Assembly (NCBI GenBank): GCA_944323045.1
Contig: CALUQX010000011.1
Span: 1 to 64,000 of the forward strand
DNA: 64,000 nucleotides
Source: Candidatus Gastranaerophilales bacterium
GTDB lineage: Bacteria > Cyanobacteriota > Vampirovibrionia > Gastranaerophilales > Gastranaerophilaceae
Direction of reading: 5' to 3'
Shown here: positions 22,111 through 25,798 of the stretch, piece after piece
Layout of the letters: each line of letters begins with the position of its first letter
Numbering within the stretch: position 1 is the stretch's first letter
Translations under genes and position numbers: made by a program
Notes under the pieces: generated by a model
The model's database searches: none
Told to the model about the DNA's origin: nothing
The model's input: only the letters and a program-made list of their open reading frames with translations

Positions 22111-23256
22111 TTACAACTGTGGCCTTTGTCCGGCTTGCTCAAGTGAATCTGATGTTCCAATAATTTTATTTACCCCAAATGCTCTTTTGTAATCGTCATC
22201 TGTACAGCTATTTTTTAGATAACAGGTAAAATCATTAACTTTTCCACTAAAAGTGACTGCCATTAAATATAGATCTTTTGCTGCTTTATTAGGGGCTTTC
22301 TGCCCGTTAACATCAGTAATAACCAAAAAGCCGACATCACGAATATAATCAGGAACCTTTTCAAATAAATATCCATATACTATCCCGTCAGCTGTAACAA
22401 AATAATATTCTGAAGATTTCCAAATATCTTGTTGGAAATTTTCAGGTAGCTCTATAACTGCAGCATAAGCCGGAGGTGTTAGAATATTACCAAGTAGTGT
22501 AACATCTCCTGGCAAAATGGAAGATATATCATCATATGTTATAGATTCCATTTTATCTTTAAAACTATTACTCAATGAAGAGTCCATAATATTGAAGAGT
22601 TTTCTGCTATTTTTATCTAATTCATTTACATTAACAGACACTGATTGCTTATTATATGCAGGTAATCCATAACTAAATAATGGCGTCAAGCGTAAATCTC
22701 CAGGAGTACCGTTATTTGCAATAGCTAAATTTAAAGCATTAGATAAAACTGACATACTTTTTTTGTATGCAGTTTCCAGAACTTTGTCCTGATAATTCGC
22801 AATAATTGCAGGGATTGTTATTGCCGCCACCACGCCGATTATTGCCAATGTTATTAGCACCTCCGCCAAGGTAAAGGCTGCTTTTGAAGTCGTTAAGACG
22901 TTAGGACGATAAGACGTGTCTTGGATTTGCTTCACGCTCGCAGAGTTTCGCCTATTGTGCTTATGCACAAGCCGGCTCAATCTGCTCGCTACCCGGATTT
23001 GCTCACATTCGTTCGCGACATCCGTACGCAAATCCGCTAAGTCCATATCATCTTTAGGCTCTGTTACTTCGTGGCTAATCTCGTAATTATTAACTGGTAT
23101 TTGTGCCTGTGCTAAGTTGTCATCCTGAACTTGCAGCTCCTCTTGTTGCCGAATGCAATGAGGCTTACAAGGGAGGGTGCTCGTAGAGTATTTCAGGATC
23201 TCATTACCGTCGCGTTTTACGGGTTCTAATGATTTTGAATTTGGTTTCTGGTCCAT
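22111..23256 (-). CDS. Prepilin-like protein with a 127-residue leader
   Basis: The prepilin signal (KAAFTLAEVLITLAIIGVVA) begins at residue 126, after an unusually long, charged leader; ordinary leaders have under 25 residues. The start has AAAGGT ten bases upstream, so the long form is probably translated as written; an internal ATG (residue 71) would still leave 56 residues. The leader has a different composition, and its last part (DTSYRPNVLTTS) is encoded by the AAGACG repeat at 22889-22920. The globular domain (about 225 residues) includes the VITDVNGQKAPNKAAKD motif of this prepilin family and two cysteines. The prepilin peptidase normally cannot accept such a leader, so processing is uncertain. 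Confidence 0.72.
   Translation of the reverse strand: MDQKPNSKSLEPVKRDGNEILKYSTSTLPCKPHCIRQQEELQVQDDNLAQAQIPVNNYEISHEVTEPKDDMDLADLRTDVANECEQIRVASRLSRLVHKHNRRNSASVKQIQDTSYRPNVLTTSKAAFTLAEVLITLAIIGVVAAITIPAIIANYQDKVLETAYKKSMSVLSNALNLAIANNGTPGDLRLTPLFSYGLPAYNKQSVSVNVNELDKNSRKLFNIMDSSLSNSFKDKMESITYDDISSILPGDVTLLGNILTPPAYAAVIELPENFQQDIWKSSEYYFVTADGIVYGYLFEKVPDYIRDVGFLVITDVNGQKAPNKAAKDLYLMAVTFSGKVNDFTCYLKNSCTDDDYKRAFGVNKIIGTSDSLEQAGQRPQL
22889..22920. repeat. AAGACG-type repeat, site B, inside the prepilin leader
   Basis: The sequence gtcgttaagacgttaggacgataagacg matches sites A and C and is translated as part of the leader of the prepilin at 22111. It sits directly upstream of the codons for the FTLAE signal. 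Confidence 0.6.
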
Positions 23257-23289: not shown

Positions 23290-23325
23290 CGTACTTAGCG
23301 TCCTAACGTCTTATCGTCTTAACGC
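23290..23325. repeat. AAGACG-type repeat, site C
   Basis: On the minus strand this 36-base stretch reads as AAGACGATAAGACGTTAGGACG-like units (written here in part), in the promoter region of the prepilin gene, about 34 bases before its start. Confidence 0.6.
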
Positions 23326-23372
23326 CTTTTTTCTGTCTAATAGTCCACTTCTTGTGTTTTTATGCACTTTTG

Positions 23373-23392
23373 CACAAGTTTACTAACTTGTG
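23373..23392. terminator. Hairpin, possible terminator
   Basis: A perfect 8-bp stem CACAAGTT-TACT-AACTTGTG lies between the prepilin promoter and the reading frame with the G9 tract. The flanking T runs are weak. Confidence 0.4.
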
Positions 23393-23408
23393 TCGAATTT
23401 TTGTTTGA

Positions 23409-23462
23409 GATCCCGCAAAGCGGTGATTTTTGTTGGCTCCGGTTGTGCCGCTGCGGGATGAC
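23409..23462. repeat. REP-like hairpin element, copy 2 (inverted)
   Basis: This copy is in opposite orientation to 21867-21920: same length, the outer 13-14 bases identical, the centre different. It overlaps the alternative frames downstream of the G9 tract. Confidence 0.75.
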
Positions 23463-23534
23463 ATAATTGGCGTTGACTGCACTTCTTCAGCGGTTTCCAT
23501 ATGTAAGAGCACACTTCGTGTGCCTGAAAGCCGC

Positions 23535-23807
23535 TCAGGCTGTGAGGTTGTCGCCCCCCCCCTCCGCAAATGCAGTATTCATGCGGGTTTCAGCCCCTTG
23601 CGGGGCAGTGGTGAGTGTGGTGAGTGGAGTGAGTACCATTTTTGGGTCGGTCAAGTTTTCACTTCCACTGGAATTTTGTGACGCAACAGTATTTTTATTG
23701 CTGATATAGAAACCCCAACCTACAATATGCTGCTGAAATTCACCATTAAAACGGCGAAAATCACAACCTGCTTTATATTCCTGTTTTGTAGCCAAATTTC
23801 CAGCCAT
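23535..23807 (-). CDS. Unknown reading frame interrupted by a G9 tract
   Basis: I do not recognise this frame of 90 residues. It starts at an ATG with GAGGAA six bases upstream, a good ribosome site. The first 45 residues (for example CDFRRFNGEFQQHIVGWGFY) look protein-like; the rest is Thr/Ala-rich. Near the end nine G occur in a row on the coding strand (23554-23562), and the frame closes eight codons later. With eight G the frame would continue to 23360 (about 148 residues); with ten it would also stay open for some 60 codons. It may be a phase-variable gene or a decayed composite. Confidence 0.45.
   Translation of the reverse strand: MAGNLATKQEYKAGCDFRRFNGEFQQHIVGWGFYISNKNTVASQNSSGSENLTDPKMVLTPLTTLTTAPQGAETRMNTAFAEGGGDNLTA
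23554..23562. repeat. Homopolymer G9/C9 tract
   Basis: Nine consecutive C on the plus strand, in a reading frame on the minus strand. No other G/C run of comparable length was noticed in this AT-rich window. Confidence 0.95.
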
Positions 23808-23894
23808 CAAAATTCCTCATTCAAACTTTATATTTTTATTATTACATACCTCTGTGGATTTTTCAAGTCCTTGAACAAAATAATTAAATAAAAT

Positions 23895-23932
23895 AAAAAG
23901 TCAGGCAAGGTAATAACATTGTCTGACTTTTT
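23895..23932. terminator. Bidirectional terminator
   Basis: AAAAAGTCAGGCAA and TTGTCTGACTTTTT pair with one G-T wobble around a 10-base loop, downstream of the minus-strand gene at 23957. Confidence 0.75.
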
Positions 23933-23956
23933 AAACTATCTGTTAAACAACAGCTA

Positions 23957-24448
23957 TCAGGCAGGTCTGTGACCGGTTTTTAACTGGTGATCTACATTAG
24001 CTGTTTTCTGATTGGCTTTTAATTTTGCAGCAATTATATTATATGCGCATACGCCAACTGCTGCTGCGCCTGCAATAATTTTAGATTTTGTACCGATACT
24101 CTTTATCGGATTTTTGCATACTTCTTTGAGTGAGCCGCCTTTTCTGAAACCTTTTGGCAATGCATCAAACAGCCAGCTTCCGCCAAGTATTGCTACTCCG
24201 GTTGTTAAGCCATATGCAACACCTTTAAATGTGCCTTTTACCATTTCAGTTGTTGTTGCAAAAAATTTAGCTACGTTTGCTATGAAATTTCTGACAGGAT
24301 GCTTTTTTTCTGAAGTTTCTTTTTTACTGGAAAATTCTACAGAATCCGCTTTAGAATTTGTAGTTTTAGGCTGTTGTACGTTTGATGTTTGTGTATTATT
24401 TGCTTGCGCTGCACAGAAACTTACGTATGGATTTAAACCTACTTCCAT
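23957..24448 (-). CDS. Unknown protein with two hydrophobic segments
   Basis: I do not recognise this 163-residue protein. Its N-terminus (EVGLNPYVSFCAAQ) resembles the NPxxxF starts of other proteins in the window. A polar Thr/Ser/Lys linker (about 15-50) follows, then two hydrophobic stretches: VAYGLTTGVAILGGSWLF and SKIIAGAAAVGVCAYNIIAA. The start has AAGGAG eight bases upstream, and the gene is flanked by terminators on both sides, so it is a solitary unit. Perhaps a membrane protein of the cell envelope; there is no evidence for a function. Confidence 0.7.
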   Translation of the reverse strand: MEVGLNPYVSFCAAQANNTQTSNVQQPKTTNSKADSVEFSSKKETSEKKHPVRNFIANVAKFFATTTEMVKGTFKGVAYGLTTGVAILGGSWLFDALPKGFRKGGSLKEVCKNPIKSIGTKSKIIAGAAAVGVCAYNIIAAKLKANQKTANVDHQLKTGHRPA

Positions 24449-24589: not shown

Positions 24590-25420
24590 TTAAATATTTG
24601 GATAATTGTCAGGATATTCCCAGTTATTTTTTATTATCATGGCTCCGCAGTACATTTTGTTGCCTTCATCAGAACATCCATAGTCGCCTTCTGCTAGGTC
24701 AGACTCCCCAGTGCCTAAGGCGCTGATTGTGTTTGCGCTAACAACAAATATGTACCTGTCAGCACCATATTTATTTGGTTTTTTAGCCCCGTTTAAATCA
24801 AAATAAAGATATAAAATCTGATTGCTTTTATTGATAACAACCCCTAATTGCGTACCGTCAGCCAATGTATAAGTTATCTCAGGTTCTTCTGAAACTGTAC
24901 TGTTTTGCTCCAGGTAATATTCATAATATGAAGCACAAAGTACATCTACCCCGCCTGCGTGATCTCCCCAATTGCCCTCATGCGCAATGCAAGTGTTGAT
25001 AACTGACTGGCAGAATTCTGATGTATTCCCTTCTCCTTTCATTGCGTTGTCCAAACAGGTATATTCTGGATCTAGTGCCGCCTCCGCTGCTTGTTCAAAG
25101 AATAAGCCCTGAGTTATACCGGCATAACTCAGCCAACAATTCTCACATTCGTTTAGTTGGCTAAAATACGGTGCGATGTATTTAGAAATAAACTCTTTAT
25201 TGTCAAGTTCCCAATTCCAGTATGACATGGTACCGTTTTCAATTGTTGAAAGCCTTAAAACCTGTGTAAATTCTGCATATTTTTTTCTCAAAGCTGTCAG
25301 ATAAAATCTTTTCTGCCATTTTGTTGTCATCACCGGAATGGTCAATACTGCAACTATCCCGATAACTGCAAGTGTAATTAACACTTCTGCCAGAGTAAAA
25401 CCTTTCTTAAAAAAATTCAT
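24590..25420 (-). CDS. Type IV pilin-like prepilin
   Basis: The N-terminus FFKKGFTLAEVLITLAVIGI is a classic prepilin signal with Gly before the cleavage point and Glu at +5. The 276-residue protein has eight or more cysteines in the globular part (for example NECENCW, VDVLCAS, YGCSDEGNKMYC), suggesting several disulfides, and the DLNGAKKPNKYGADRYIF motif shared with the other prepilins. GAGGAA precedes the start. The upstream region carries two palindromes and a divergent HTH gene, so expression is probably controlled by that regulator. Confidence 0.87.
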   Translation of the reverse strand: MNFFKKGFTLAEVLITLAVIGIVAVLTIPVMTTKWQKRFYLTALRKKYAEFTQVLRLSTIENGTMSYWNWELDNKEFISKYIAPYFSQLNECENCWLSYAGITQGLFFEQAAEAALDPEYTCLDNAMKGEGNTSEFCQSVINTCIAHEGNWGDHAGGVDVLCASYYEYYLEQNSTVSEEPEITYTLADGTQLGVVINKSNQILYLYFDLNGAKKPNKYGADRYIFVVSANTISALGTGESDLAEGDYGCSDEGNKMYCGAMIIKNNWEYPDNYPNI

Positions 25421-25522: not shown

Positions 25523-25798
25523 ATGAACGAAATAGAAAAAAAATACTGTTTAGAAGTTGGCAAAGCTATTAAAGCATTACGTCTTGAACACACTAAAAAA
25601 TCTTCAAGACTTTTTGCCTATGAAAACGAAATTCCCAAATCAACGTTATGGCGCATCGAAAGCGGTGAAAATGAGGCGCAGTTGGTTACGCTTAAAAAAA
25701 TCGCCGAAGGATTCGGGTGGTCTATGGCAGAATTATTCTCTAACATTGAAAAAAAATTACCGCCGGACATAAAGATTTTTGAAAATGACCATTATTAA
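25523..25798 (+). CDS. XRE-family helix-turn-helix regulator
   Basis: This 91-residue protein is essentially one HTH_XRE domain (GKAIKALRLEHTKKSSRLFAYE as first helices, then IPKSTLWRIESGE as the recognition part) with a short acidic/proline tail. It is divergent from the prepilin at 24590 and probably binds the paired TCCCAtATGGGA-type palindromes in between. No ribosome site is visible. It overlaps the mutS stop by four bases in convergent arrangement. Confidence 0.85.
   Translation: MNEIEKKYCLEVGKAIKALRLEHTKKSSRLFAYENEIPKSTLWRIESGENEAQLVTLKKIAEGFGWSMAELFSNIEKKLPPDIKIFENDHY

Follow-up and report, generated by a model that had tools for sequence, protein, structure and literature searches.

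A poly-G tract in a predicted leader reading frame as a candidate contingency switch ahead of a type IV-like prepilin gene in Gastranaerophilaceae

Phase variation by poly-G tracts is known mainly from pathogens, e.g. Campylobacter, Helicobacter and Neisseria. In Neisseria, a G-quartet is found upstream of the type IV pilin gene pilE, for which there is a single expressed locus together with silent copies and gene conversion. Genes of various classes carry the poly-G contingency loci of Campylobacter, and the median number of tracts in C. jejuni is 20 (PMC6321876); in the leader of Helicobacter pylori tlpB the sRNA RepG tunes expression by the length of a G-repeat (PMC8295292). In Streptococcus gallolyticus, the pil1 and pil3 loci display leader-peptide phase variation with attenuation; the repeat unit is GCAGA, and the terminator, which has a T-run, has been tested (PMC3894217). 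Pilins are also diversified in a different manner: the type V tip pilins of Bacteroides are targets of diversity-generating retroelements (reviewed in PMC12632263).

Here, we relate these systems to a locus in a window of 64,000 nt, i.e. the whole stretch of DNA analysed, from a Candidatus Gastranaerophilales bacterium with a genome assembly of 1.98 Mb in 44 contigs that is 97% complete. The basis throughout is assemblies, mostly metagenome-derived, in which tract lengths are consensus calls and the copies compared are related to each other. We consider it probable that a G9 tract in the window is a slipped-strand contingency switch located in a translated leader ORF ahead of a prepilin gene and that this switch decides whether ribosomes reach the prepilin. 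Because the same module is present about 16 times in this genome and also in relatives, individual pilin genes would very probably be switched on and off at random.

The G9 tract and its leader reading frame

The G9 homopolymer at 23554-23562 on the minus strand (C9 on the plus strand) is the sole G/C run of at least 7 nt in the window, and with 0.01 G9 matches expected by chance in dinucleotide shuffles it is a genuine, non-chance feature. The tract lies in a minus-strand leader ORF at 23535-23807 that begins with the ATG at 23807, stops at 23535 and encodes 90 aa, or 91 aa if counted from a TTG one codon before. In this phase, the leader stops 19 nt past the tract and 278 nt ahead of the ATG of the downstream prepilin gene, and we refer to it as the short state. 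By in-silico frame reading, two long states exist: (i) with G8 the ORF would span 23360-23807 and stop 103 nt upstream of the prepilin ATG, and (ii) with G10 it would span 23383-23807 and stop within the 5' arm of a hairpin. A first-pass annotation of this DNA had pointed to the in-frame G9 run in an AT-rich region, the ribosome site before the leader, the frame to 23360 that is joined by G8, the third frame that is opened by G10 and two adjoining prepilin genes; all of these are borne out, with a GC content of 36% in the window, a Shine-Dalgarno GAGGAA at 23813-23818 (minus strand), an end of the G10 frame at 23383 and prepilin genes at 22111-23256 and 24590-25420.

The locus has the tract length of a slipped-strand phase-variable locus (at least 8 G; G9 here and mostly 9-15 in other copies), and G8, G9 and G10 give three leader ends, so that the frame changes with tract length. 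A difference in tract length between otherwise identical loci was found in one pair: C2_81853 and L203 in the sister genome G003 show no difference in the 100 nt upstream or the 150 nt downstream of the tract, which is G11 in one and G12 in the other. The window copy's own orthologue is without a tract.

Upstream of the leader ORF, a promoter-like TTGAAA-17-AATAAT with a TG ahead of the second hexamer is present on the minus strand at 23838-23866 (10 of 12 consensus matches). Four promoter-like sites were found in the region against 2.9 expected, which makes the promoter call weak by itself; the stretch is retained in the orthologue L269. Sites of the GAGGAA or GAGGAG type lie ahead of most leader ATGs in G000 and G003, and in G001, G002 and G004 TATAAT starts 12 nt ahead of most leader ATGs, which suggests a leaderless mRNA in these three genomes.

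Six species of the genus were used to compare frames. In the own genome, the leader ATG and an AAACC motif before the tract are 111-357 nt apart, and 14/14 copies with the motif have a distance divisible by three. Similarly, pairwise leader indels come in threes in 64/64 cases in G002, 60/60 in G003 and 57/75 in G000; indels that are not multiples of three are present to some extent in G000, G001, G004 and G005, the alignments of which include bases adjoining the tract. The three codon positions of the leader change about equally, indicating conservation of the frame but not of the peptide. By all comparative signs, the leader ORF appears to be translated.

The first-pass annotation had also proposed a phase-variable surface gene with three C-termini. 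Comparison lends good support to one part of this proposal, the phase variation of a surface system: tract lengths are mostly 9-15, one pair differs as G11/G12, the frame is kept through indels and prepilins lie downstream. The other part, a single gene with three alternative ends, fits poorly: profile searches against Pfam and NCBIfam gave no family match for the leader peptide, there is no surplus of third-position changes among copies, mosaic repeats make up the peptide, and the extended ends show no conservation as a product. Conservation instead concerns the reading frame and the position of the translation stop with respect to the hairpin and the prepilin start downstream. Rfam matches at the locus were all far under gathering scores. 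We rejected the leader as a conserved protein on the basis of the missing family match and codon-position signal, and the leader peptide itself is probably not the surface protein of the system. That the leader protein is nevertheless the phase-variable product is very unlikely: its ORF bears the signs of translation and the three ends exist, but the short state ends a few residues past the tract, and it is prepilins that follow.

A repeated module linked to prepilin genes

With positions 23300-24000 as the query, 51 matches, mostly partial, were found in the window's own genome. This genome contains 21 tracts of at least G8, of which 18 are at least G9, and 16 of these 18 sit in diverged copies of the same element as in the window, with lengths of G9-G12. 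In 15/15 fully assembled copies, an ORF that starts with ATG, nearly always behind a ribosome site, stays open up to and into the tract, and a prepilin-type gene with FTLAE is present on the same strand 281-815 nt from the tract start. The other two tracts of at least G9 (C1:111138 and C1:115524 (L067); G10 and G12) are found within open ORFs of 334 and 311 aa, the neighbours of which by eye resemble sugar-nucleotide and glycosyltransferase genes; these two ORFs are candidates for further phase-variable loci.

The downstream prepilin gene in the window (22111-23256, minus strand) encodes 381 aa with a FTLAEVLITLAIIG motif from residue 128. It matches PF07963 with 22.3 bits (cut-off 21.2) and TIGR02532 with 23.1 bits (cut-off 16.3), and together with a PF01478 prepilin peptidase at C9:75146 this N-terminal cleavage/methylation motif gives the marks of a type IV-like prepilin system. 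The regulated surface gene is most likely this prepilin. In the whole genome, 99 places match the prepilin N-terminus. In the window's prepilin, the segment of 127 residues before FTLAE (22876-23256) is unusually long and contains a CGTTAAGACG-type repeat that is also present elsewhere in the genome.

Among relatives, tracts of at least G9 number 10-32 per genome in all six genomes of the genus, and 50 of 60 genomes sampled from the family contain tracts of at least G10. Single tracts sampled in other genomes of the family give a mixed picture: some lie within prepilin ORFs, and others have no prepilin nearby. G runs of about 8-12 are located in or near surface-related genes at many loci per genome, with a predicted frame-dependent ON/OFF state, in a manner similar to Campylobacter (PMC6321876) and to the phasome of Neisseria meningitidis (PMC5084427). 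Unlike in these organisms, one prepilin family dominates where examined, there are up to 124 tracts of at least G10 in one genome, the maximum in the family sample, and the tract in the window's genus is carried by a separate leader ORF.

The repeated nature of the module raises the question of recombination. Copy-to-copy similarity shifts sharply at the tract in five pairs (own genome and G003), which are at least 95% alike on one side and less than 80% alike on the other, suggesting that upstream and downstream modules may recombine at this position. In addition, several sister genomes have contigs with an end near a tract; in G001, the contigs L129, L141, L147, L155, L156 and L157 end within about 100 nt of it, as would be expected if repeats or mixed lengths break assembly. 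Both observations are in line with a recombination hotspot at which a G-rich structure drives gene conversion among prepilin loci, as proposed by analogy with the guanine quartet of Neisseria pilE, with length change as a by-product. Shared with pilE are a G-rich element ahead of a type IV pilin gene and the presence of many related copies; unlike at pilE, numerous genes are complete here and have start signals of their own, and the tract is a plain homopolymer and not spaced G triplets, so that it does not qualify as a pilE-type element. Since a hotspot also leaves unexplained the kept frame and the stop geometry described below, we regard it as a decidedly improbable account of the tract, even though it could act alongside a switch.

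Stop geometry and a model for the switch

A conserved hairpin, ACACAAGTTAGTAAACTTGTGC, is present at 23372-23393 (minus strand) in the mRNA between leader and prepilin, as identified by comparison of copies. The pattern ACAAGN...NCTTGT lies downstream of the tract in 66 of the 72 copies with enough sequence; among its 31 distinct sequences, the sixth pair is standard (T-A, T-G, C-G, G-C or G-T) in 27 and not in four. The hairpin has no U-run in sense, a T-run after it being absent in nearly all copies, and an intrinsic terminator in sense was rejected by consensus. The same inverted repeat scores terminator-like on the plus strand.

The positions at which the three phases stop are ordered with respect to this hairpin. 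After the tract, one phase ends within about 25 nt and the remaining phases usually continue. In the 66 hairpin copies, one phase ends before the hairpin in 49, two do so in 17 and three in none; all 66 thus have one or more phases that terminate ahead of the hairpin and one or more that run into it or beyond. Mononucleotide shuffles, which overstate independence because the copies are related, led us to expect all three frames to be closed in 37 of 60 distinct tract-hairpin intervals, and 0 such cases were found. As assembled, 62 of 85 copies from six species are in the short state versus 33 expected with random phase, an excess to which shared ancestry of tract lengths could contribute.

Combining the frame and stop data, we suggest that gain or loss of a G shifts where leader translation stops if, as we infer, the tract slips in living populations. 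With G9, ribosomes would leave the mRNA shortly past the tract, and we take this state to be OFF or low. With G8 or G10, ribosomes would continue into or just beyond the hairpin, within 103-126 nt of the prepilin ATG, and we take these states to be ON. None of the phases in the own species is fused to the prepilin or overlaps its start; therefore, the coupling must be indirect. We infer an attenuation-like step because the leader never reaches the prepilin start: moving ribosomes may open the hairpin or suppress premature, e.g. Rho-dependent, termination as in leader attenuation.

This arrangement parallels S. gallolyticus pil1 in that a pilus gene is preceded by the ORF of a leader peptide, which has a ribosome site and contains a simple repeat (PMC3894217), and in that one phase ends short of a stem-loop and the shifted phases within or after it. 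Moreover, the low state is found in most cells there and the short state in most assembled copies here. Unlike in S. gallolyticus, the repeat is poly-G, the hairpin is without a U-run and the effect on expression is a prediction from sequence; the genes encode type IV-like prepilins and not sortase pili, are present in about 16 copies per genome and in sister species show fusion or ATGA overlap with the leader. Thus, a leader ORF with start signals and an internal repeat as well as phases on either side of a stem-loop are present, but because the hairpin has no T-run we do not file the locus as an S. gallolyticus-type system.

Two copies appear locked in a long frame. The orthologue of the window locus in G003 has the same leader start and prepilin, of which 231 aa of the mature part are 100% identical; it has lost the tract and contains a single leader ORF of 164 aa that is open in the frame that G10 would give in the window and ends in the hairpin. 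Similarly, contig 22 of the own genome carries a G6 copy that is in a long frame. These copies may be taken to fit the long frame as the working state, weakly so because they are only two and because long frames are two thirds of the possibilities in the own genome.

The sister genomes are Candidatus Gastranaerophilales metagenome assemblies. In 16 of 24 copies in G002, a phase ends in an ATGA that overlaps the start of the downstream ORF, this putative start being the first or an early ATG in the frame that reaches FTLAE. In G004, eight copies examined have one phase in which the leader is fused to the prepilin, and two of these are in the fused phase as assembled. In G026 and G061, which belong to another genus, the tract lies shortly inside the prepilin ORF in 37/47 and 25/28 tracts examined, respectively (the G026 count includes three FTLSEV proteins added by eye), and exactly one of three phases is full length, with 15 ON and 47 OFF as assembled. 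This layout has the anatomy of ordinary translational phase variation, which is most likely the role of the tract in these relatives.

Alternatively, the tract could act at the RNA level, with a C-rich sRNA binding the G run or a change in leader structure tuning expression gradually by length, and the leader ORF being incidental. The parallel is H. pylori tlpB, whose mRNA leader likewise contains a variable run of G. Provided that the promoter is correctly assigned, the tract would be part of the transcribed 5' leader, and RepG represses best at 9-12 G (PMC8295292). We consider this unlikely given that, unlike in tlpB, frame and not length alone appears to be selected; RNA-level control predicts neither leader indels in threes, nor the finding that one or two phases, and in no copy all three, end ahead of the hairpin, nor the ATGA overlaps and in-ORF tracts of relatives. 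Finally, the tract and leader might be inert, mosaic intergenic repeats copied along with prepilin loci and without present function. The element is indeed multicopy and made of repeats that occur elsewhere in the genome, but the frame is kept across many distinct lengths, the stop geometry is ordered, and the same link between tract and prepilin is found in another genus with different flanks; an inert relic therefore is highly improbable. We favor the slipped-strand switch in the leader ORF.

Layers of surface diversity in the family

The second prepilin gene in the window (24590-25420) is flanked by a divergent HTH-like gene at 25523-25798 with a weak HTH_3 match. By eye, a small HTH-like ORF is located 49-222 nt upstream on the opposite strand of about 27 of the 29 other prepilins with upstream sequence in the own genome, and a divergent gene of this type was seen at 0 of the 15 prepilins with a poly-G leader. 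Of eight HTH-like ORFs scanned, three score above a curated HTH cut-off, four give weak matches (HTH models in three of them) and one gives none.

About 40 prepilins on many contigs of the own genome share a hypervariable C-terminal tail that resembles the variable region of a retroelement; the window prepilin at 22111-23256 is without this tail. G001 contains a retroelement cassette (L319:162-1703, with the reverse transcriptase from 1746) that comprises a variable repeat, an Avd-like gene, a template repeat and the reverse transcriptase, and the target of this cassette is a prepilin tail of this kind. Sixteen of 18 differences between template and variable repeats are at a template A, and the Avd match has 64 bits, which is under the curated cut-off of 80, and an E value of 1e-17. 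Compared to the G001 template, own-genome tails differ most at A (0.50) and also at C (0.30). Reverse transcriptases are scattered in the family, and the 97% complete assembly of the own genome has no RVT_1 match. As with the tip pilins of Bacteroides, the retroelement would diversify the C-terminal binding part of a pilin; unlike in Bacteroides, the target in the sister species is a type IV-like prepilin that has paralogues under poly-G leaders.

By combining these data, we arrive at a wider scheme for which the chances seem evenly balanced: Gastranaerophilaceae would have a layered system of surface diversity in which a big family of type IV-like prepilins has some tails rewritten by a diversity-generating retroelement and individual members that are either switched on randomly by poly-G tracts, located within the prepilin ORF itself or within a translated leader, or placed under a private divergent HTH regulator. 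In the open-access papers searched on Gastranaerophilales, Melainabacteria or Vampirovibrionia, we found no earlier report on phase variation, pilins or retroelements of this kind. Poly-G tracts are now prominent in an uncultured, non-photosynthetic gut lineage related to cyanobacteria, where they are concentrated, as far as examined, on one prepilin family, and some genomes of the family have more than 100 G tracts. The different layouts, i.e. tract in the prepilin, fused leader, ATGA overlap, and separate leader with hairpin, look like stages on the way from a frame switch to a leader switch, and the evolution of this kind of control thereby becomes testable. For the bacteria themselves, the prediction is that samples hold mixed states of pilin expression.
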